A DNA stretch of 48,077 nt from Gemmatimonadales bacterium (lineage in GTDB: Bacteria; Gemmatimonadota; Gemmatimonadetes; Gemmatimonadales; GWC2-71-9): the NCBI GenBank assembly GCA_019637315.1, contig JAHBVU010000024.1, positions 1-48,077 of the forward strand, given 5' to 3'. A program made the position numbers and the translations under genes. Shown here one piece after another: positions 36,264 to 47,127 of the stretch. How positions within the stretch are numbered: the first letter of the stretch is position 1; the number at the start of each line of letters is the position of its first letter. The notes under the pieces were generated by a model. The model did no database searches. It had not been told where the DNA came from and was given only the letters and a program-made list of their open reading frames with translations.

Positions 36264-37534
36264 TTACTCGCCGCCGCCGGCCGCCTCGATCAGCCGCAGG
36301 GCTGGCTCGCTCACGAAGATCGGTGCGTGAAAGCGTCGGCCCCAGGACAACGGGGTGACGTCACGATAGTCGTGACGGGTGGGGTCGCCATGGCCCGGGT
36401 GCAGCCGCTTCCAGATCGAGGCCCGAACGTTAGGCTCCGCACCGTACTGCAGCAGGAGTTCCGTGAAGGGCGCGGTGTAGGGTCCGCGCTTGCCATAATT
36501 CATCCAGAAGTTGGGCTGCGATACGACCGTATTGAACAGCGGCGTGTATCCCCCGAAACCGCTCGCCCCGACCGCGGCCCGCGCGTTCGGATCCGCCCCG
36601 GCCTCGAGGAGCCACCGGGCAATTTCCAGCTCGTCATAGTCGACGCACATGTGAAGCAGCGTCGTCCCGCCCAGGGGAGTGCCGACCGTGGCGTCGAGCG
36701 GATCACGACACCCCATCTCCGCCGGGTAGATCTCGCGGTGCGTGAAGGTGCGACTCAGAAGATTCGGATCGCTCCGCAGGTGGCGCTCGAGCAGATCGAT
36801 CCGTCCCCGATGCAACGCCATGACCGGCGTGTCGGGGTACTCCAAACCGTGCTCTTCATACAGGCGCAGAATCGCATGCTTTGCCGCAGGCTTGCGACTG
36901 TCCGTTTCGAGCACGACGCTCACCGGCGCCAGGAGAGTCCCGGTGCTGTCCCTCACCTGCGCACCAAGGCTGAGCAGCAGCGCCGTACCCTCGGCGCTCA
37001 ACGTGTATGCTGGCCCGCCGAGTGCATCCATTGGGACTGGCGGTCGGCCGCTCAACTCATACAGCATCCGCGCGGTGCCGACCTGACCCTGCAGTGCCGC
37101 CCGATCGACCGCCGATGCGAAGTCGGTGGCGCCGAGTGCCACGAGATCCCGGATGATGCGATCGCGGCCGAGGTTGGCGGCGTAGGTCATCGGCGGACCC
37201 CAGTTACTGTCTGCACGAATCAGAACCTGCTCGGTGAGCAGATGCGGGTTGCGCCCGATCAGAGTTCGAACGGCCTCCGCGTCATCGTTCCAGATTGCGG
37301 TCGCCATCCCGACCGCTTGGCCAGCCTGGGCCAACTGGAGGCCTGGTACCAGCGAGCGATTACAAGCTGCGCATCGGCCAGCTTGGCCTCGGAAGGGGCG
37401 ATGGGATCCGGATGGAACTCCTTGAACGCCTCGTGTGCCGCAGCGTCTCCGTCTCGATAGGAGCGGAGCAGGTCCTTGGCTTGATGCTTGAGCTGGTCGA
37501 GATCGGGTCGAACGGGCAGGCGACGGACGGGCAC
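36264..37534 (-). pseudogene. Ankyrin-repeat protein gene interrupted by a frameshift
   Basis: Two overlapping frames make one gene. The 5' part starts with GTG at 37534 after a strong AAGGAGG, and encodes 'RPDLDQLKHQAKDLLRSYRDGD...LADAQLVIARWYQASSWPRLA'. The 3' part in another frame continues 'QAVGMATAIWNDDAEAVRTLIGRNPHLL' and then ankyrin-like repeats ('GGTTLLHMCVDYDELEIARWLLEAGADPNARA', 'PFTELLLQYGAEPNV') to the stop at 36264. The switch falls near 37315-37322, where adding one base would give a continuous 423-residue protein of a common family. Either a real 1-bp deletion or a sequencing error. Downstream residues remain well conserved, so any inactivation is recent. Confidence 0.82.
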
Positions 37535-37761
37535 GGCAAACCTCCTTGGTACGCCCGGAGTCCGCTGGGTCGGGCAAAGGAGGGCACGAAGGAACCGGCC
37601 TCAGGTCATGCGTCGGGTGGACTCGGTCCTTCCCGCGGACGGGAGGCGCCCCGCGCGCCTGTCCGAGAAGGTACGCGACCGGTCCGATCAGCCGCAAGAT
37701 TCCGCCGACCGGGCTGGGTCTCGCCCACACCTGGCCGCCCTACTCGTTACGGTGGCCGGTC

Positions 37762-37803
37762 TTGCGTCCGGGGCACCGTTCTTGCATTTTTATGCACTAT
37801 GCA
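37762..37803 (+). promoter_or_regulatory. ARG box and start-site promoter of the arginine operon
   Basis: TGCAT-TTTT-ATGCA (37783-37796) is a perfect inverted repeat. The 18 bp CTTGCATTTTTATGCACT (37781-37798) match about 15 positions of the reverse complement of the Bacillus ArgR/AhrC operator as I recall it. It abuts the argG ATG at 37799, and ATGCA recurs at 37799-37803 as a further half-site. TTGCGT (37762-37767) and CATTTT (37785-37790), 17 bp apart, would start transcription at or next to the ATG, implying a leaderless or near-leaderless mRNA. ArgR bound here would block the promoter. Confidence 0.72.
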
Positions 37804-38998
37804 AAAAACCATCGCCCTCGCCTTCTCCGGCGGTCTCGATACCAGCTACTGCGTTCCCCGGCTCGCCGAGCAGGGCTACGCCGTTCACACCGTCTACGTC
37901 AACACCGGCGGCACCTCGGCGGCGGATCTGGCGGCAATTCGCAAGCAGGCCGAAGCGGTCGGCGCGGTCTCGCATCACGAGGTGGATGCCCGCCAGCCGG
38001 TGTTCGATCGGTTCGTCCGGTACCTGATTCAGGGCAACGTCCTCCGGGGCGAGGTCTACCCCTTGAGCGTGTCGGCCGAGCGGACCCAGCAGGCCCTCTC
38101 GGTCATCGAGACGGCTCGGAAAATCGGTGCAACCGCGATTGCCCACGGCTCGACCGGCGCCGGCAACGACCAGGTCCGGTTCGACATCGCGATTCGAGTC
38201 CTGGCGCCCGAGATGGCCATCGTGACCCCGATCCGGGACGAGTCGCTCACCCGCGATGCCGCGATTGCCTATCTCGAGGCCCGCAAGCTGCCGGTGCCAC
38301 CCAAGGCGGGCGCTTTCAGCATCAACAAAGGTCTCTGGGGTACCACCTGGGGCGGGGGCTGGACCCACGATACCTGGGCCGCGCCGCCTGCGGAGCTGCT
38401 GGACCCGCCCGCCGATGCGCCGGCGCCGGTCGATGCTGTGATCGGCTGGAAAGAGGGCGTGCCCGTATCGATCGACGGTAAGGAGTACGCGGGTGCCGAC
38501 CTGATCGCGGCGATCAGCGAGTACACCGAGCGCTACGGCATCGGCCACAACATCCACGTGGGCGAGACGGCGCTGGGCATCAAGGGCCGGATCGGCTTCG
38601 AAGCCGGCGCAGCATTGCTGCTGATCACCGCGCATCGCGAGCTCGAGAAGTTGGTGCTCACCAAGTGGCAGACCTACTGGAAGGATCACCTGTCGCGCTT
38701 CTATGGTGACCGGCTCCACGAGGGTCACTATTTCGACCCTGCGCTTCGGGACATCGAAGCGCTGATCAGCAGTTCGCAGCAGCGGGTGACCGGTGAGACC
38801 CGCGTTCGCCTGGCGCCAGGTCGGTTCATGGTGACGGGAACGCGAAGCCCCTTCTCGCTGATGGACAAGTCCGTCGCGACCTATGGCGAAGAGAACCGGC
38901 TCTGGACCGGTGATGAGGCACGGGCCTTCGCGCGCATCGGCGCGATCCCGTCGCTGTTGGCGGCCAAGGTGGCCGAGAAGAATTCGGAGCGGAGGTAG
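37799..38998 (+). CDS. argG: Argininosuccinate synthase
   Basis: A 399-residue enzyme joining citrulline and aspartate with ATP, the penultimate step to arginine. 'ALAFSGGLDTSYC' at residues 7-18 is the PP-loop for ATP, and 'AHGSTGAGNDQVRFD' the citrulline/aspartate-binding block; 'AFSINKGLWGTTWGGGW' and 'IGHNIHVGETALGIKGRIGFEAGAALLLITAHRELEKLVLTKWQ' complete the family pattern. ATG at 37799 puts the PP-loop at its normal distance; no Shine-Dalgarno can fit because an ARG box ends at 37798. First gene of a nine-gene operon; a frame extension upstream lies outside the conserved protein. Confidence 0.95.
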   Translation: MQKTIALAFSGGLDTSYCVPRLAEQGYAVHTVYVNTGGTSAADLAAIRKQAEAVGAVSHHEVDARQPVFDRFVRYLIQGNVLRGEVYPLSVSAERTQQALSVIETARKIGATAIAHGSTGAGNDQVRFDIAIRVLAPEMAIVTPIRDESLTRDAAIAYLEARKLPVPPKAGAFSINKGLWGTTWGGGWTHDTWAAPPAELLDPPADAPAPVDAVIGWKEGVPVSIDGKEYAGADLIAAISEYTERYGIGHNIHVGETALGIKGRIGFEAGAALLLITAHRELEKLVLTKWQTYWKDHLSRFYGDRLHEGHYFDPALRDIEALISSSQQRVTGETRVRLAPGRFMVTGTRSPFSLMDKSVATYGEENRLWTGDEARAFARIGAIPSLLAAKVAEKNSERR

Positions 38999-39002
38999 GA
39001 AC

Positions 39003-40091
39003 GTGGTACGCACGACACGGGTTCGGCTCGATCGGATTTCGTCCGCAACCAAGAACGCGCGGCTCAACACCGACGTGATCCTGGGCGACGAGATCCGCGC
39101 CGAGGAGGGGCAGATTCTGGCGGTTCGGATTCTGTCCGATAAGTCGAGCTACAACACGGTCGAGGATGTCTCGGGCCGGATGGTGTCACTCCGCGCTGGA
39201 GATATCCTGGCCGGCGTGCTGGGCTCGCGGCGCGCGCTCCGCGGCTACGCGGGTGAGGTGCCGGCCACCGTGGCGGTGGGCGATACGATCAACGTGCTGA
39301 ACTTGGGCGGTATTCTCGGTCGCTGCACCTCGGTCAACCCCGACATCGGCCCGCCGTTCGACGCCGAAGTGCTTGGTGCGGTGCTGACCTTCCCCGATCT
39401 CGGCGATCGGGTCGGCCGTCCGGCCTCGATTCGGGATGGGGCGGTCGCAATGCCGTCGCACGTCGATCCGTCGACGCCGATCGTGTACGTCGTGGGCACC
39501 TGCATGAACGCCGGCAAGACCGTGGCGGCCACCGAGCTCGTCCGCGGCCTGGCTCGGCGCGGTCTCAAGGTCGGCGCCGTCAAGCTGACCGGCGTGTCGC
39601 TGATGCGTGACACCCTCTCGATGCTCGACGCGGGCGCGATTGCTGCGCTAGCGTTCAACGATGCCGGTATTGCGAGCACCCATGCCGGCCCCGAGACGGT
39701 GACCGTGGCCAAGGGGCTGCTGGGCCGGTTGGCGAGTCGGCATTCCGGGTCACCGGATGTCATCGTGGCCGAGCTGGGCGACGGCATCCTGGGCGAGTAC
39801 GGCGTTCAGGACATCCTGCTCGACGCCGAGTTGATGAGCGTCGGTGCCGCCCACGTGATGGCTGCTCCCGATCCGGTGGCCTGCTGGGGTGCGGTCGAGC
39901 TCTATCGGAACCGGTTCAATCTCTCGATCACGGCCTTTACCGGCCCCGCGACCGACAATCAGGTTGGCCGCGACTTCATCACCAACTCGCTGGGCCTGCC
40001 ATCGTTCAACGCGTTGCGCAATGCCGCCGGGCTGGTCGATGCGGTCGAGCCTGCGGTGCGCTCGTGGATGAGCAAGCGGGGAGCGGCGTAG
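39003..40091 (+). CDS. P-loop protein of unknown function in the arginine operon (candidate glutamate N-acyltransferase)
   Basis: A 362-residue cytoplasmic protein, GTG start with GGAGG 7 bp upstream, 4 bp after argG and overlapping argC by one base. Residues 1-155 are a beta-rich domain ('ALRGYAGEVPATVAVGDTINVLNLGGILGRCTS'). Residues 160-362 are a BioD/MobB-like P-loop domain with 'GTCMNAGKT' (165-173), 'VGAVKLTGVSLMRDTLSMLDAGA' and 'DVIVAELGDGILGEYGV'; the layout recalls DUF1611 proteins, one of which (DgcN) has been reported as a D-glutamate N-acetyltransferase. No ArgA, ArgJ or GNAT gene is in the operon, so this gene may supply the missing acylation of glutamate. That role is inference; a GTPase or kinase role is the main alternative. 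Confidence 0.6.
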   Translation: MVRTTRVRLDRISSATKNARLNTDVILGDEIRAEEGQILAVRILSDKSSYNTVEDVSGRMVSLRAGDILAGVLGSRRALRGYAGEVPATVAVGDTINVLNLGGILGRCTSVNPDIGPPFDAEVLGAVLTFPDLGDRVGRPASIRDGAVAMPSHVDPSTPIVYVVGTCMNAGKTVAATELVRGLARRGLKVGAVKLTGVSLMRDTLSMLDAGAIAALAFNDAGIASTHAGPETVTVAKGLLGRLASRHSGSPDVIVAELGDGILGEYGVQDILLDAELMSVGAAHVMAAPDPVACWGAVELYRNRFNLSITAFTGPATDNQVGRDFITNSLGLPSFNALRNAAGLVDAVEPAVRSWMSKRGAA

Positions 40092-41119
40092 TGAAAGTCG
40101 CGGTGATTGGCGGCGCCGGCTACGCAGGCGGTGAGCTGCTGCGGCTGCTGTTCCAGCATCCGGAAGTCTCGGAGATCAAGGCAACCAGCCGGAGCCAGGC
40201 GGGTAAGCCGGTCGGCGACGTGCATCCGGGCCTGGCGGCGTATCCCGACGTTCGCTTTACGGGCGAAACCCCGGGTGAGGCGGCCAAAGGCGCAGATGCG
40301 GTCTTCCTGTCGCTCGAGCACGGCGAGTCGTCCAAGCTGATGGGCGAGATCGTCGACGCCGGCCCCGGGCTGATTGTCGACCTTGCGGCGGATTTCCGGA
40401 TTCAGGACGGCCGACTCTACGAGACCTACTACGGCGCGCATCCCGCGCCCGAGCTGGTCCATCGATTTGCCTACGGTCTGGCCGATGTCCGCCGGCAGGA
40501 ACTTCGGGGTGCCAAGGCCATTGCGGCTCCCGGCTGCTTTGCAACGGCTGCCCAGCTTGCGCTGTGGACCCTCAAAGGGGCCCCGTTGGCTGGTGAGCCG
40601 GCGGTGTACGCGATTACCGGTTCGAGCGGCGCAGGGGTGCACCCGAAGCCGACCACGCATCATCCGGCCCGGGCGCACAACGTCTTTGCCTACTCCGTGC
40701 TCAGTCACCGGCACGAGGCGGAGATCGCCGAACAGTGGCGGCAATGGACCGGCAAGACGGGCGCGACGCCCCGCCTGCTGACCCACTCCGGCCCGTTCGT
40801 GCGCGGCATCTACGCAACCGTCCATGCGCGGCTGACAGAGCCCGCCGCGGAGGCAGTCAAGGCTGTTGCGACCGCGCTGGGTGCAGGCAGCCCTTTCGTG
40901 CGGGTCACCTCCGCGCCGCCGCAGCTGACCCACATCGTGGGCACCAACGACGCGCTGATCCATGTGACAGCCTCGCCCGATGGGCATGAGGTGGCGGTCA
41001 CGGTGGCGATCGATAATCTCGTCAAGGGTGCGGGCGGGCAGGGTGTCCAGGCCATGAACCTGGCCCTGGGCCTCGACGAGACTGCGGGGCTGCGCATCGC
41101 GCCGGCCTATCCGATCTGA
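40091..41119 (+). CDS. argC: N-acyl-gamma-glutamyl-phosphate reductase
   Basis: A 342-residue NADPH-dependent reductase making the N-acylglutamate semialdehyde. 'VAVIGGAGYAGGELLRLL' is the nucleotide-binding loop, Cys149 in 'APGCFATA' the catalytic cysteine (most family members have PGCYPT), and 'GSSGAGVHPKPTTHHPARAHNVFAYSVLSHRHEAEI' the conserved block with the active-site histidines. GTG start overlaps the stop of the upstream P-loop gene by one base. If the operon uses succinylated substrates, the acyl-binding pocket should differ from acetyl-type ArgC; the altered CFAT motif may reflect this but is not proof. Confidence 0.93.
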   Translation: MKVAVIGGAGYAGGELLRLLFQHPEVSEIKATSRSQAGKPVGDVHPGLAAYPDVRFTGETPGEAAKGADAVFLSLEHGESSKLMGEIVDAGPGLIVDLAADFRIQDGRLYETYYGAHPAPELVHRFAYGLADVRRQELRGAKAIAAPGCFATAAQLALWTLKGAPLAGEPAVYAITGSSGAGVHPKPTTHHPARAHNVFAYSVLSHRHEAEIAEQWRQWTGKTGATPRLLTHSGPFVRGIYATVHARLTEPAAEAVKAVATALGAGSPFVRVTSAPPQLTHIVGTNDALIHVTASPDGHEVAVTVAIDNLVKGAGGQGVQAMNLALGLDETAGLRIAPAYPI

Positions 41120-41166: not shown

Positions 41167-42318
41167 ATGAGTACATCGAATACCGGTGCGTGGCTGCCGG
41201 TCTATGCGCAGTTTCCGCTTCGCGCCGAGTCGGGTCAGGGCTCCTGGCTGATCGATGACAAGGGCGAGAAGTGGCTCGACGCCTACGGTGGTCACGCCGT
41301 GGCGTCGACCGGCCACTGTCATCCGGCGGTGGTCAAGGCGATTGCAGACCAGGCCGCCAAGCTGATCTTCTACTCGACCGCCATTCCGCATGCAGGTCGT
41401 GAGCAGCTGGCCGAGCGAATCGCGGCGCTCTGCCCTGATCCGCTCAACAAGGTGTTCTTCTGCAATAGCGGCGCGGAGGCCAACGAGAATGCGCTGAGCC
41501 TGGCCCGCAAAGTCACTGGCCGGCAGCGTATCGTCTCGGTGACAGGTGGCTGGCACGGCCGCACGGTTGCCACGCTCGCCGCCACCGATGGCGCCAAGTA
41601 CGAAGAGGGCGCCAAGCGGGCCGGTATGCCGCTGTCCACCAAGGTGCCCTTCAACGACGTCACGGCCATTGGTGCAGCAGTCGATGATTCCGTCGCGGCC
41701 GTGATCGTCGAGCCGGTGCAGGGTCTGGCCGGCGCGCGCGACTGCTCCCCCGATTTCCTGCGGGCGGCCCGGATTGCCTGCGATCGCGAGGGCGCCGTCC
41801 TGATTTTCGACGAGGTGCAGTGCGGCGCTGGTCGCTGCGGAGCCTTCACGGCCGCCGAGGCGTATGAAGTCGTGCCGGATGTCCTGACGCTGGCCAAGGG
41901 GCTCGCGTCGGGAATACCGATCGGCGCCATGGTGGCCACGACGGCCATGACCTCGCGCCTGTCGGTCGGCGATCTGGGCAGCACCTTCGGCGGCGGGCCA
42001 GTCGCCTCGGCCGCTGCGCTTGCCACCATCGACGTGATCGTGAAAGACCGCCTGGTCGAGAACGCCGTCCTGGTGGGCGATCACATCCGGCGCGGCGTCA
42101 GCAAGCTCCCGGGTGTCACGGATGTCATCGGTCGCGGACTCCTGATCGGGATCGTGCTCGATCGGCCGGCCTCCGCTGTGCAGAAGGCACTGTTCGATCT
42201 CAAGGTGCTGACCGGTACCTCGGGTGATCCCTCGATTCTGCGGCTGATGCCGCCGCTTTCGTTCTCACGAGCGGAAGCCAACCTGTTGATTGACGCGTTG
42301 CGTCGGGTCCTGACATGA
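41167..42318 (+). CDS. argD: Acylornithine aminotransferase
   Basis: A 383-residue PLP-dependent class III aminotransferase converting N-acylglutamate semialdehyde to N-acylornithine with glutamate. 'FFCNSGAEANENALSLAR' and 'GGWHGRTVATLAATD' form the PLP-phosphate region, 'LIFDEVQCGAGRCGAF' holds the aspartate that contacts the pyridine nitrogen, and 'TLAKGLASGIPIGAMV' the Schiff-base lysine. ATG at 41167 lies 47 bp after argC, the largest gap in the operon, and overlaps the stop of a five-codon open frame (41153-41170). Its own TGA overlaps the argF' ATG. Confidence 0.93.
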   Translation: MSTSNTGAWLPVYAQFPLRAESGQGSWLIDDKGEKWLDAYGGHAVASTGHCHPAVVKAIADQAAKLIFYSTAIPHAGREQLAERIAALCPDPLNKVFFCNSGAEANENALSLARKVTGRQRIVSVTGGWHGRTVATLAATDGAKYEEGAKRAGMPLSTKVPFNDVTAIGAAVDDSVAAVIVEPVQGLAGARDCSPDFLRAARIACDREGAVLIFDEVQCGAGRCGAFTAAEAYEVVPDVLTLAKGLASGIPIGAMVATTAMTSRLSVGDLGSTFGGGPVASAAALATIDVIVKDRLVENAVLVGDHIRRGVSKLPGVTDVIGRGLLIGIVLDRPASAVQKALFDLKVLTGTSGDPSILRLMPPLSFSRAEANLLIDALRRVLT

Positions 42319-43328
42319 GAAAGCGCGACTTCCTCGCCACCGAGGATCTCGGGAAGGAACATTTCGAGGCCATTCTGGATCTGGCCGCCAAGGTCAAGCG
42401 GGGTGAGGTCACCGGTGGGCTCGAGGGCAAGGTCCTCGCCGCTGCGTTCATGGATCCGAGCTTGCGCACTCGCGCCAGCTTCGAATCGGCGATGTTCAAG
42501 CATGGCGGGCACATGATCGTGCTCGAGCCGGGGCGGAGCAGCTGGGCCTGGGAAACCGAGCGCGGCGCGGTGATGGAGGGCAACACGGTCGAGCACCTCA
42601 TCGAAGCGTCCCGCGTGCTCGGTCGCTACGCTGATGCCATCGGGGTCCGGGTCTTTCCCAAGGGCACCGAGTGGGTCAAGGAGCGTCAGGACCGGGTCAT
42701 CAAGGACTTTGCCGCCTTCAGCGAAAAGCCGGTGATCAACCTCGAATCGGCTCGCCGGCACCCGTGCCAGGGATTGGCCGATGCGCTGACGCTACGGGAA
42801 AAGTTGGGCATTACGCAGAACAAGAAGTTCGTGCTGAGCTGGGCCTGGCACCCGAAAGCGCTGCCGACCGCCGTGCCAGCCAGCGCTGCGATCGCAGCGG
42901 CGCAGTGTGGTATGGATATCACCATCGCTCGGCCGCATGGCTTTGACCTCGATGCCGACGATATGGCCGTGATCTACCAGCAGGCCGCCGCCAACGGCGG
43001 GCGGGTGACGCTGTCACATTCGATGTCGGATGCCCTGGTCGGTGCCGACGCGGTGTATGTCAAGTCGTGGGGCTCACTGCAGCACTACGGCAATCCGGAG
43101 GCAGAGCGCGAGTTCCGCGCCGGGCTGCGCGACTGGCGGATGACCACGGCCGCCACCAAGGCGACCAACGGCGGCAAAGGCATCGTGATGCACTGTCTCC
43201 CGGTGCGCCGCAACGTGGAGATCGACGATGCCGTGCTCGACGGCCCCAACTCGGTCGTGATCGACGAGGCCGAAAATCGCTTGCACGTCCAGCGCGCGCT
43301 GCTGCTGGACTTGATCGGGAGAAAGTAA
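42315..43328 (+). CDS. argF': N-acylornithine carbamoyltransferase, probably N-succinylornithine type
   Basis: A 337-residue transcarbamylase that makes N-acylcitrulline from carbamoyl phosphate. 'MDPSLRTRASFE' is the carbamoyl-phosphate loop; 'SARRHPCQGLADALTLRE' and 'LSWAWHPKALPTAVP' are specific to the N-acetyl/N-succinyl-ornithine branch (Xanthomonas AOTCase, Bacteroides SOTCase), not standard ornithine enzymes. 'HCLPVRRNVEIDDAVLDGPNSVVIDEAENRLH' closes the protein. Trp77 aligns with the AOTCase 80s-loop tryptophan. At position 92, where acetyl enzymes have Glu and succinyl enzymes Pro, Ser or Val, this protein has Val in 'GNTVEHL'. It overlaps argD by 4 bp and argB by one. Confidence 0.9.
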   Translation: MRKRDFLATEDLGKEHFEAILDLAAKVKRGEVTGGLEGKVLAAAFMDPSLRTRASFESAMFKHGGHMIVLEPGRSSWAWETERGAVMEGNTVEHLIEASRVLGRYADAIGVRVFPKGTEWVKERQDRVIKDFAAFSEKPVINLESARRHPCQGLADALTLREKLGITQNKKFVLSWAWHPKALPTAVPASAAIAAAQCGMDITIARPHGFDLDADDMAVIYQQAAANGGRVTLSHSMSDALVGADAVYVKSWGSLQHYGNPEAEREFRAGLRDWRMTTAATKATNGGKGIVMHCLPVRRNVEIDDAVLDGPNSVVIDEAENRLHVQRALLLDLIGRK

Positions 43329-44263
43329 TGCCGCACGACGCTACTCGGCCGCTGGCCGGGCTCAAGGGAACGCTTCGCTACGTTCGCGCCTATCGGGATC
43401 ACGTCTTCGTCGTCAAAGTCGGCGGCGAGGTTGTCGAGGACGCTCATAGCCTCGATCAGGTTGCCCAGCAGCTCGGCCTCTTGTCGAGCCTCGGCATTCG
43501 GATCGTCATTGTCCATGGCGGCGGGCCCCAGGCCACGGCCCTGAGCCGCCGACTCGGCCAGGAGCCTGAGATTGTCGCGGGCCGTCGCGTGACCGACGAC
43601 TCCGCGCTCGAAGTGGCCAAGATGGTCTTCTCGGGCACCGTCAATCTCGATCTCCTCTGTGCGCTCCGGCGGCATGGGGTGCAGGGCGTCGGCTTGAGCG
43701 GCGTCGATGCCGACCTGCTGAGCGCCGTTCGCCGTCCGCCGGTATCGGTCAAGGATGACAGCGGAACGGTGCGCACGGTCGACTACGGCCACGTGGGCGA
43801 CATCGAGTCCGTCGATGGCCGCGTCCTCACCAACCTGCTCGACGGGCGCTTCGTGCCGGTGATCTGCTCACTCGCCGGCGACAAGGACGGTCACGTCTTC
43901 AACGTCAATGCCGATACCGTGGCCGAGCGGATCGCCATCGCGCTCAAGGCACAGAAGCTGATCTTCCTGACCGGCGTGCCCGGCGTGCTCCGCGACCGAA
44001 ATGATCCCGCCTCGCTGGTGACGTTCGCAGATCCGGACGATCTGACGCAGCTGATGGAGTCGGGGGCGCTGGCGGGTGGGATGCGGCCCAAGGTCGAGGC
44101 CTGCATCCGCGCAGCTACCAGCGGTGTCGAACGGACCCATATCATCGACGGTCGTGCTACCGATTCGCTGTTGCAGGAAGTATTCACCGGATCTGGTGCG
44201 GGTACCATGATCGTGGGCAAGAAGGAAAAGGCAACCTACGTCGGGGCCGAACTTGCGGAATGA
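43328..44263 (+). CDS. argB: N-acylglutamate kinase
   Basis: A 311-residue amino-acid kinase that phosphorylates the gamma-carboxyl of N-acylglutamate. 'FVVKVGGEVVED' carries the ATP-phosphate lysine, 'IVIVHGGGPQATALSRRLG' the glycine-rich loop, 'GRRVTDDSALEVAKMVFSGTVN' the acylglutamate-binding block, and 'FNVNADTVAERIAIALKAQKLIFLTGVPGVL' the nucleotide site. ATG at 43328 overlaps the argF' stop (taATG); the longer open frame upstream is a shadow of argF'. The N terminus lacks the extra helix typical of hexameric arginine-inhibited kinases, but inhibition cannot be decided from this. Confidence 0.95.
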   Translation: MPHDATRPLAGLKGTLRYVRAYRDHVFVVKVGGEVVEDAHSLDQVAQQLGLLSSLGIRIVIVHGGGPQATALSRRLGQEPEIVAGRRVTDDSALEVAKMVFSGTVNLDLLCALRRHGVQGVGLSGVDADLLSAVRRPPVSVKDDSGTVRTVDYGHVGDIESVDGRVLTNLLDGRFVPVICSLAGDKDGHVFNVNADTVAERIAIALKAQKLIFLTGVPGVLRDRNDPASLVTFADPDDLTQLMESGALAGGMRPKVEACIRAATSGVERTHIIDGRATDSLLQEVFTGSGAGTMIVGKKEKATYVGAELAE

Positions 44264-45317
44264 AGTCGAGTTTCTGAAGGAGTTGGTGGCGATTCCCTCG
44301 GTCAGTGGAACCGAAGCGGAGATCGCCACCTTCGTCGAGGGTCGGGCCCGCGCCCTTGGCCTCGATGTTGTCAACGACGACACCGGCGTCAAGATCATCG
44401 TCGAGACAGGGCGGCCGGGTCGGACCCTCGCGTTCATTTCCCACCTCGATGTCGTTCCCGCGGGCGAAGGGTGGACCCGCGATCCGTTCACGCCGACGGT
44501 CGAAGGCGATCTCCTCTACGGTCGCGGCTCAGGCGATGCCAAAGCATCGGTGTCAGCGATGTTCATGGCGGCGCTCGATTTTGCCGAGCGACGTGGGGAG
44601 GACGTGGGCGGCCGCCTCGTGGTCGTCTTCGGACTGGGCGAAGAGACGCGGAACACGAGCATGGGTCGCGCGGTTGCGACACTGCCGCCGATCGATGCAA
44701 CCGTCGTTGGTGAGCCTACCAACCTGCGGATCTCCAATGCGCAGCGCGGCTTGATGATGGTCGATCTGATTGCCAAGGGCGATCAGCGTCATGCCGGCTA
44801 CGCGTCCCAGGGCGGCTTTACCAACGCGATTACCGAGCTGGCCAGCGACCTCGTCAAGTTGCCCGACCTGCTGAGTGAGCGGATTCACCCGATTCTGGGC
44901 CGGGCCACGGTCACCGCAACGATGATGTCGGCCGGGGTGAGCCGCAACGTCACGCCCCCGTCGGCCAAGGCGATCCTCGATATTCGGAGCACGCCGTCGT
45001 GGGAGCATTCCGAAATCGCCGAGGTGCTTCGTACGGCGCTCGACTGCGAAGTCGTGGTAACGTCGGAACGGTTGGTGCCCTGCGAGACGCCAGCACAGTC
45101 GCGGCTGCTCGATGCGGCCCGACGCCTCAATCCGACGATCGAGACCTTTGGCAGTCCAACCTGTTCTGATTGGGTGTTCGTCCGTCACACCGACGCCGTC
45201 AAAGTCGGACCTGGCACCAGTACGCGGTCGCACACGCCAGACGAGAGCGTCGACCTTCCCGAAGTGGTCGCTGCACGCGGATTCTATCGGGCTCTGGCCG
45301 AGGAGTACCTCCGATGA
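44253..45317 (+). CDS. argE: M20-family deacylase, ArgE/DapE-like (N-acylcitrulline or N-acylornithine deacylase)
   Basis: A 354-residue zinc peptidase-fold deacylase. 'FISHLDVVP' holds the first metal ligand pair, 'GRGSGDAKASVSAMF' the bridging aspartate, 'GLGEETRNTSMG' the catalytic Glu-Glu, 'VVGEPTNLRI' the next ligand and 'GPGTSTRSHTPDESVDL' the last histidine. It starts with TTG and overlaps the argB stop by 11 bp. Because the operon carboxamoylates acylornithine directly, the natural substrate should be N-acyl- (perhaps N-succinyl-) citrulline rather than N-acetylornithine; DapE relatives act on N-succinyl groups, which is consistent. Confidence 0.86.
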   Translation: MRNEVEFLKELVAIPSVSGTEAEIATFVEGRARALGLDVVNDDTGVKIIVETGRPGRTLAFISHLDVVPAGEGWTRDPFTPTVEGDLLYGRGSGDAKASVSAMFMAALDFAERRGEDVGGRLVVVFGLGEETRNTSMGRAVATLPPIDATVVGEPTNLRISNAQRGLMMVDLIAKGDQRHAGYASQGGFTNAITELASDLVKLPDLLSERIHPILGRATVTATMMSAGVSRNVTPPSAKAILDIRSTPSWEHSEIAEVLRTALDCEVVVTSERLVPCETPAQSRLLDAARRLNPTIETFGSPTCSDWVFVRHTDAVKVGPGTSTRSHTPDESVDLPEVVAARGFYRALAEEYLR

Positions 45318-46675
45318 AAACACTCTGGTCGCAGGCGACGCCGCCGGATGAGCTGATGCTCGCCTACACCGTGGGCGATGACCGTCATTGGGACGGCGTG
45401 CTCTTGCAGTGGGACGTGATCGGCAGTCTCGGGCATATCGAAGGGCTTCTGGCCTCTGGGCTGATCTCGCGGGCCGATCGCGACAAGATCAAGGCCACCC
45501 TGCGCAAGGCGCTCAAGGCCGTGCGTGCCGGCAAGCTCGTCATCGGCCCGGAGCACGAAGACGCCCACTCGGCCATCGAGGCCTGGGTCACCAAGCGAGT
45601 CGGCAGTGCTGGTGAGCGCATCCACACCGGGCGGTCGCGCAACGATCAGGTCGCGGTCGATATCCGGCTCTTCCTCAAAGATCGGCTGCTGCACCTGCAC
45701 TCGCTGGCACTCGGCTTGGCGCGGGCGCTGCTGACCTTTGCCGACGACCATCAGGACGCGCTCTGGCCTGGCTATACCCATCTGCGGCGTGCGATGCCCT
45801 CGAGCGCCGGACTCTGGGCGGGTGCGCTGGCCGGCAGCCTGATCGACACCGCGGGGTCGCTCGACGCGGTCTGGCGCGGGGTCGATCGCTCGCCGCTGGG
45901 CAGCGGGGCTGGCTATGGTGTTCCGTTGCCGATTCAGCGTGAAGTGGCAGCCTCTGCGTTAGGCTTCGGCGGTCTCGAACACAACGTTGCACAGGTACAG
46001 AACGGCCGCGGCAAGCTCGAGGGTGCTGTGCTCTTCTGGTGCGTTCAGCTTGGCCACGACCTGTCGAAGCTCGCAAGCGACGTAATTCTGCTGAGCGGCG
46101 AGGAATTCGGTGTGCTCGAACTGCCGGCGGCGTTTGCGACCGGGTCGAGCATCATGCCCCACAAGCGGAACCCCGATGTCTTCGAACTGACCCGGGGACG
46201 AGCTGCGTCGCTCGAGGGCGATCTTGCCGCTACGCTGGCGTTGCGCGGCAAGCTGACGAGCGGCTACCATCGCGACTTTCAGCTGCTCAAAGAGCCCCTG
46301 GTGCGCGGGCTCTCGCGCACCGAGGAAATGCTCGCGATGATGGCGCAGGTCGTGCCTGCGCTGGGCGTCAACCGAAGCCGCGGTCTTGCCATGCTCGAAG
46401 GCGGCGTTCTGGCTACCGACGAAGTGATGCGTCGTGTCGAGCGCGGAACCCCGTTCCGGCAGGCTTATCGCGAAGTTGCCGCTGCGATCAAAGCCGGTGA
46501 GGCACTGCCGGCGCCGACACCCAAGGAAATCGTGGCGCGTCGCAAGTCGACCGGCGGCCTCGGCAAGCTCGACCTTGCCGTTCCGAAGAAGCAGTTGGCG
46601 GCAGCGGCCGAATGGAACACGGCTGAGCGTCGTCGCTTCGTCAAAGCGGTCGGCGCGCTGGTCGGGAGGAACTGA
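45314..46675 (+). CDS. argH: Argininosuccinate lyase
   Basis: A 453-residue fumarase/aspartase-superfamily lyase splitting argininosuccinate into arginine and fumarate. 'GERIHTGRSRNDQVAVDIRLFLKD', 'PGYTHLRRAMPSS' and the signature 'GSSIMPHKRNPDVFEL' are present with the catalytic serine loop. The N terminus 'MKTLWSQATPPDELMLAYTVGDD' is a variant of the usual LWGGRF opening. ATG overlaps the ArgE-like stop (ATGA). The C-terminal region has an alanine/lysine-rich extension after the usual helical domain. Confidence 0.95.
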   Translation: MKTLWSQATPPDELMLAYTVGDDRHWDGVLLQWDVIGSLGHIEGLLASGLISRADRDKIKATLRKALKAVRAGKLVIGPEHEDAHSAIEAWVTKRVGSAGERIHTGRSRNDQVAVDIRLFLKDRLLHLHSLALGLARALLTFADDHQDALWPGYTHLRRAMPSSAGLWAGALAGSLIDTAGSLDAVWRGVDRSPLGSGAGYGVPLPIQREVAASALGFGGLEHNVAQVQNGRGKLEGAVLFWCVQLGHDLSKLASDVILLSGEEFGVLELPAAFATGSSIMPHKRNPDVFELTRGRAASLEGDLAATLALRGKLTSGYHRDFQLLKEPLVRGLSRTEEMLAMMAQVVPALGVNRSRGLAMLEGGVLATDEVMRRVERGTPFRQAYREVAAAIKAGEALPAPTPKEIVARRKSTGGLGKLDLAVPKKQLAAAAEWNTAERRRFVKAVGALVGRN

Positions 46676-47127
46676 TGATCCGCGGCGACCGGCGCCAGCG
46701 TCACCTCAAGATTCTCGAGCTGATCGAGACCCACGCGATCCGGACCCAGGAGGAACTGGCGGATGCGCTGGCCCGTGAGGGCTGGGAGGTGACGCAGTCA
46801 TCGGTTAGTCGCGACATCTCGGCGCTCAACCTCGTCAAGGTCGATGGGGTCTACTACCGACCCGCGGTGACTCGACCCCCACGCCTCGATCAGGACGAGC
46901 AGCGGATCGTCGAGGGGGTGCTGGCCTTCAACCCCGCGGGTGACGTCCTGATCGTGATTCACACCCCACCCGGCGAGGCCAATCGCGTCGGCATTGCTAT
47001 CGACCGCCTCGCCTGGCCCGACGTCCTGGGCAATATCTCCGGCGACGACACCATCTTCCTCGCGACCAGGAATCAGGTCGGCCAGCGCAACGTCATCAAG
47101 CAACTCGCTGAGTTGACGTCGTCCTAG
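46675..47127 (+). CDS. argR: Arginine repressor ArgR
   Basis: A 150-residue arginine-dependent regulator. The N-terminal winged helix includes 'TQEELADALAREGWEVTQSSVSRDISALNLVKV', with SSVSRD as the recognition helix; the C-terminal domain has 'PGEANRVGIAIDRL' and 'VLGNISGDDTIFLAT', the oligomerisation and arginine-binding motif (GDD). As last gene of the operon whose promoter carries an ARG box, it should close a feedback loop: arginine-loaded ArgR shuts off the whole pathway and itself. ATG overlaps the argH stop (tgATG). Confidence 0.95.
   Translation: MIRGDRRQRHLKILELIETHAIRTQEELADALAREGWEVTQSSVSRDISALNLVKVDGVYYRPAVTRPPRLDQDEQRIVEGVLAFNPAGDVLIVIHTPPGEANRVGIAIDRLAWPDVLGNISGDDTIFLATRNQVGQRNVIKQLAELTSS

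Follow-up and report, generated by a model that had tools for sequence, protein, structure and literature searches.

A putative ArgR operator abutting the start codon of an apparently leaderless argG operon in the Gemmatimonadales

Operators of the arginine repressor ArgR often comprise two boxes. The ARG box itself is an 18-bp imperfect palindrome, consensus forms of which are given in PMC4865122, and the argG box of B. halodurans lies at -36 (PMC4865122). Single ARG boxes are known in Thermotoga and B. subtilis, and in S. coelicolor one predicted ARG box, mentioned in a footnote, overlaps a start codon (PMC3293853). Operators within leaderless promoters have been described for other repressors. 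The nreAXY operon of Mesorhizobium is autoregulated, its leaderless mRNA has been mapped to the A of the AUG, and the repressor operator lies within the promoter (PMC12724321). The cI and cro genes of phage PY54 are also leaderless (PMC4488713). In Actinobacteria and Deinococcus-Thermus, Zheng et al. read a TANNNT hexamer at -12 as the signature of leaderless genes (PMC3160421). Our literature search returned no description of ArgR or an ARG box together with leaderless genes or leaderless promoters, and for Gemmatimonas and its phylum it returned no transcript-start maps and no reported leaderless genes. Repressor operators in leaderless promoters are thus already known, and it is the ArgR case described here that is new among the literature searched.

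The window, the whole 48,077-nt stretch of Gemmatimonadales DNA that was analyzed, carries an ARG box, CTTGCATTTTTATGCACT, at positions 37781-37798 (no strand assigned), which we propose as an ArgR operator based on its sequence, conservation and consensus scores. The box adjoins the argG start codon (ATG, 37799-37801) with no base between them. Within it is a perfect inverted repeat in which TGCAT (37783-37787) and ATGCA (37792-37796) are separated by four bases, and two bases after this core the pentamer ATGCA occurs again, at 37799-37803 on the plus strand, formed by the start codon together with the CA that opens codon 2. The site resembles the ArgR/AhrC operators of E. coli, B. subtilis and Streptomyces in being an 18-bp imperfect palindrome accompanied by a regulator with both ArgR domains, but differs from them in that no base separates it from the start codon of the first gene of its operon, itself apparently leaderless. 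With nreAXY it would share a repressor operator inside the leaderless promoter of an autoregulated operon, although the nreAXY repressor belongs to the CsoR/RcnR family, and the nreAXY operator is in the -35/-10 spacer rather than on the -10 element and start codon. The PY54 genes are comparable as repressor circuits whose messages begin at the AUG, but they form a lysis-lysogeny switch with unrelated regulators.

When compared to the published consensus forms (PMC4865122), the box matched 15 of 18 positions in each case. It was the top match to the B. subtilis consensus (minus strand) and to the Streptomyces consensus, and the tied top match to the E. coli consensus, in a 448-kb sample of the genome taken in 20-kb stretches and searched on both strands. 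Another site scoring 15/18 against the E. coli consensus, at C4:101385, overlaps a TAAATT adjoining a possible GTG start. The box had been described in the first-pass annotation as a Bacillus-type ARG box at the argG start; the box, its perfect repeat and its abutment to the ATG all stand, whereas the type assignment is not specific: the core of the box has the Streptomyces form, and by core and score the box belongs to the Streptomyces type (AWTGCATRWWYATGCAWT) no less than to the Bacillus type. The 18-mer CTTGCATTTTTATGCACT occurs once in the 3.9-Mb genome, and the pattern TTGCATNTTTATGCA at zero to two mismatches had the argG site as its one genome match. At three mismatches there were 18 matches, which is control level (26 for the reversed pattern), and a search of the genome for further strong ARG boxes gave chance-level matches only. 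Two tandem boxes separated by 2-3 bp, a common but not universal arrangement, were not present at argG, where one full box is followed at a short gap by one ATGCA, and no second box at the canonical 7-nt spacing 3' of the ATG was seen by eye in the aligned argG sequences of the family to which the window belongs. Tandem boxes are no strict requirement, since single boxes have been reported (PMC3293853).

The argG gene of the window belongs to a group of 18 close homologues (the copy in the window counted) with about 70-87% identity, all in the same family, and elsewhere a distinct argG type, about 35% identical, is found. It is the close type that carries the box at the ATG. Allowing up to two mismatches, TGCATNTTTATGCANTATGCA was present in 33 of 102 family genomes, essentially once in each, with no matches for the reversed control, and every site that was fetched lay at an argG start. 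In the motif search upstream of related argG genes suggested earlier, 32 distinct sequences had the box directly at the ATG; 31 of them belong to this family and one (L052) comes from a record titled Myxococcales, and sequences from one family are to be read as non-independent samples. Across an alignment of 17 sequences, the stretch from -16 to -3 was near-invariant with the exception of spacer positions -11 and -10, position -1 was always T, and the ATGCA at the start codon was invariant, while there was little information upstream of the box other than at the -35 element. In one genus (L019/L160 of G012, G122 and G123) the right half-site is degenerate (TTTACCCATT), with TGCAT and the start-codon ATGCA kept.

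The putative promoter noted previously, TTGCGT/CATTTT, is present as described on the plus strand, with the -35 element at 37762-37767 and the -10 element at 37785-37790 (-14 to -9 from the ATG) separated by 17 nt, and the pair recurs in the 32 distinct sequences. The -35 takes the form TTGC/TG or TTGCA in 32 of 32, at 15-18 nt (most commonly 17) from a -10 of the form CATNNT that is rarely altered. The -10 overlaps the left ARG half-site and begins with C rather than T; A2 and T6 are kept, and positions 4-5 vary, CATAAT being among the forms. None of the 32 sequences has room for a Shine-Dalgarno sequence.

In 448 kb of the genome containing the window and 400 kb of a congener (including G000 C2:1-200000 and C4:1-200000, and G005 C1:1-400000), TANNNT stood at -12 before 29 of 674 starts predicted with a simple codon-usage script, compared with an expectation of 3.2 (Poisson p about 2e-18). 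By this signature the genus clearly appears to have a leaderless gene class of the kind described in PMC3160421, from which argG differs in that its CATNNT is at -14, two bases farther from the ATG than the genus norm of -12, and shares its -10 with an ARG half-site. In L013, L051 and L132, which are identical in sequence, the box is two bases nearer the ATG and CATATT falls exactly at -12.

Transcription generally initiates 6-9 nt downstream of the end of a -10 element. As the argG -10 ends at -9, the transcript is predicted to start within -3 to +1 (37796-37799, plus strand). The A of the AUG would be a good initiator because an invariant A at +1 follows an invariant T at -1, and a start at A(-3) is also possible. 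The earlier claim of a leaderless argG finds comparative support in the lack of room for a Shine-Dalgarno sequence and in the genus TANNNT peak, and the exact start at the ATG widens into a zone: a leader of 1-3 nt is possible, given that the argG -10 is two bases upstream of the typical leaderless position.

The argG gene (37799-38998; Pfam PF00764/PF20979, TIGR00032) encodes argininosuccinate synthase and is the first of nine genes on the plus strand. It is followed by a gene with a GTG start for a P-loop protein with weak DUF1611 similarity (39003-40091; E 1.3e-4, below the Pfam cut-off), argC (40091-41119; TIGR01850), an argD-type acetylornithine aminotransferase gene (41167-42318; Pfam/NCBIfam profile matches), an N-acetylornithine carbamoyltransferase gene (argF', 42315-43328; NF003384, 416 bits versus a cut-off of 288), argB (43328-44263; TIGR00761), an argE-type M20 deacylase gene (44253-45317; Pfam/NCBIfam profile matches), argH (45314-46675; TIGR00838) and argR (46675-47127). 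Except for 47 bases before argD, the genes overlap or are a few bases apart, and we therefore read them as a single operon. Because the carbamoyltransferase scores as an N-acetylornithine carbamoyltransferase, the arginine pathway probably proceeds via acetylated citrulline. The operon contains no recognizable N-acetylglutamate synthase gene (argA or argJ) and has the P-loop gene between argG and argC; the P-loop protein could supply this step or another one.

The product of argR was predicted, as in the first-pass annotation, to be an arginine repressor. Its N-terminal winged-helix domain (PF01316, 62.6 bits, cut-off 27) and its C-terminal oligomerization and arginine-binding domain (PF02863, 62.5 bits, cut-off 25) were both identified above cut-off. 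The closest solved relative by sequence is 1f9n, an AhrC-type arginine repressor/activator (E 3.5e-24), with which its GDDTI motif aligns, and a genome search with PF01316 had argR as its sole match. In at least 15 relatives argR is on the same contig as argG at a distance of 8-10 kb (about 9 kb downstream). That this tightly packed operon ends with argR agrees with the closed regulatory loop proposed earlier.

Taken as a whole, we consider an ArgR-repressed, essentially leaderless argG operon to be the probable explanation of the site (about 0.82). Against it stand the single full box with its one odd half-site, the C that opens the -10 and the position of that element two bases beyond the genus norm. 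The operator of the arginine operon would overlie a sigma-70-type promoter, with the transcript beginning at the argG AUG or no more than about three bases from it. With arginine bound, ArgR would occupy TGCAT-N4-ATGCA, lie over the -10 element and the start site of transcription, and block RNA polymerase. At low arginine, RNA polymerase would transcribe argG-(P-loop)-argC-D-F'-B-E-H-R into an essentially leaderless mRNA, whose last gene, argR, would close a negative feedback loop. The conserved unit reaches through the start codon into codon 2. From sequence comparisons, which show the site with its conservation and spacing, the gene order and a leaderless class in the genus, we infer the binding of ArgR, its dependence on arginine, the exact transcript start and the role of the ATGCA over the start codon. 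If correct, this would add a biosynthetic operon to the apparently leaderless cases, one that is both regulated and conserved and in which about 40 bases hold the operator, the promoter and the start codon; the abutting layout of box and argG is conserved in dozens of Gemmatimonadales species.

A related design was observed in a sister family. Its argC genes (32 distinct sequences; L222-L223, L225-L258) have TTGAC at the -35 position, TATGCA or TATTCA at -12, and a start codon [A/G]TG followed by CAT or AAT, such that a half-site, TGCAT or TGAAT, begins inside the start codon after the canonical 7-nt gap. Acetyltransferase genes of this family (L224, L263, L265-L267, L279), which by eye resemble N-acetylglutamate synthase genes, have a like design, the -35 of the argC and acetyltransferase sites being TTGAC or TTGCG. 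A search of 172 genomes of the order found the pattern TATKCANNNNNNRTGMATAR in 61, nearly all of them members of the sister family, with few control matches. At these argC genes the -10 falls on the right half-site (TATGCA), versus the left half-site (CATNNT) at argG in the family of the window. The persistence of the palindrome, no matter which of its halves acts as promoter, favors a DNA-binding protein over promoter sequence alone. This shift in promoter register is as expected for a regulator's site, and is the strongest argument for the palindrome being the putative ArgR site.

In an alternative reading, argG would have an ordinary leader and a promoter farther upstream; the box would work as a proximal operator or a roadblock at the ATG, and translation would begin without a Shine-Dalgarno sequence. 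Many bacterial genes have no recognizable Shine-Dalgarno, and a consensus scan of 37500-37900 identified no strong sigma-70 promoter, the proposed argG promoter not being outstanding by consensus alone. However, nothing upstream of the -35 is strongly conserved, whereas the 32 sequences retain a suitably spaced -35/-10 pair, and we regard an upstream promoter as improbable. We give still less weight to the block being an AT-rich promoter core and initiator in which the palindrome is incidental and ArgR is not bound. In a genome of 66% GC, AT-rich -10 elements do resemble ARG boxes, as the site at C4:101385 illustrates, but a promoter has no need of the right half ATGCA, which is nonetheless kept. 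The recurrence of the palindrome at sister-family arg genes in another promoter register and the presence of argR inside the operon also speak against coincidence.

A narrower question concerns codon 2, and its answer is compatible with an ArgR-repressed operon either way. The conservation into this codon had been missed in the first-pass annotation. Among the 32 distinct argG sequences codon 2 is CAA in 18, CAG in six, CAC in four, CAT in three and CCT in one, and is thus CAN in 31 (ATGCA in 31 of 32). CA is kept while the third base is unconstrained, residue 2 alternates between Gln and His, and the residues that follow vary and carry indels. In the genus, ATGCA starts only 3% of ATG genes. 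Together, the kept CA, the free third base and the rarity of ATGCA elsewhere point to a constraint acting at the level of the DNA or the 5' end. The CA after the ATG may serve leaderless translation rather than DNA binding, as in E. coli an unleadered mRNA is translated better when CA repeats follow downstream (Martin-Farmer and Janssen 1999, as cited in PMC10105947). We think this somewhat unlikely: among other leaderless-type genes in the genome of the window, only one of 12 begins with [A/G]TGCA, and the sister-family extension, [A/G]TG[C/A]AT, is an ARG half-site. Whether the start codon of leaderless Gemmatimonadales arginine genes is itself part of the putative ArgR operator, so that a DNA site dictates the second amino acid, we judge to be evenly balanced; at argG the gap between the box and the start-codon ATGCA is not canonical operator geometry. 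Under that reading, residue 2 would be set by ATG-CAN (Gln/His) in argG and by [A/G]TG-CAT or -AAT (His/Asn) in the sister-family argC and acetyltransferase genes. If it is true, the same bases would be operator, transcription start, ribosome-recognized 5' end and coding sequence, and regulation would constrain the second residue of a protein.

Other arrangements were seen among relatives of argG. In Bacteroidota and Acidobacteria no abutting box of this kind was found; at L054 a TGAAT-type box is accompanied by an apparent leader and a purine-rich site. A leader is present in the distant argG type, which occurs in the family of the window and in other families (L021-L031) and has an ARG-like site, TGTATNTTTATGC...TGCATAA; the same order thus contains both leadered and apparently leaderless forms of argG. 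Lastly, L052, from the record titled Myxococcales MAG-82, has the same abutting box before an argG that is 69% identical, which may reflect mis-binning or transfer.
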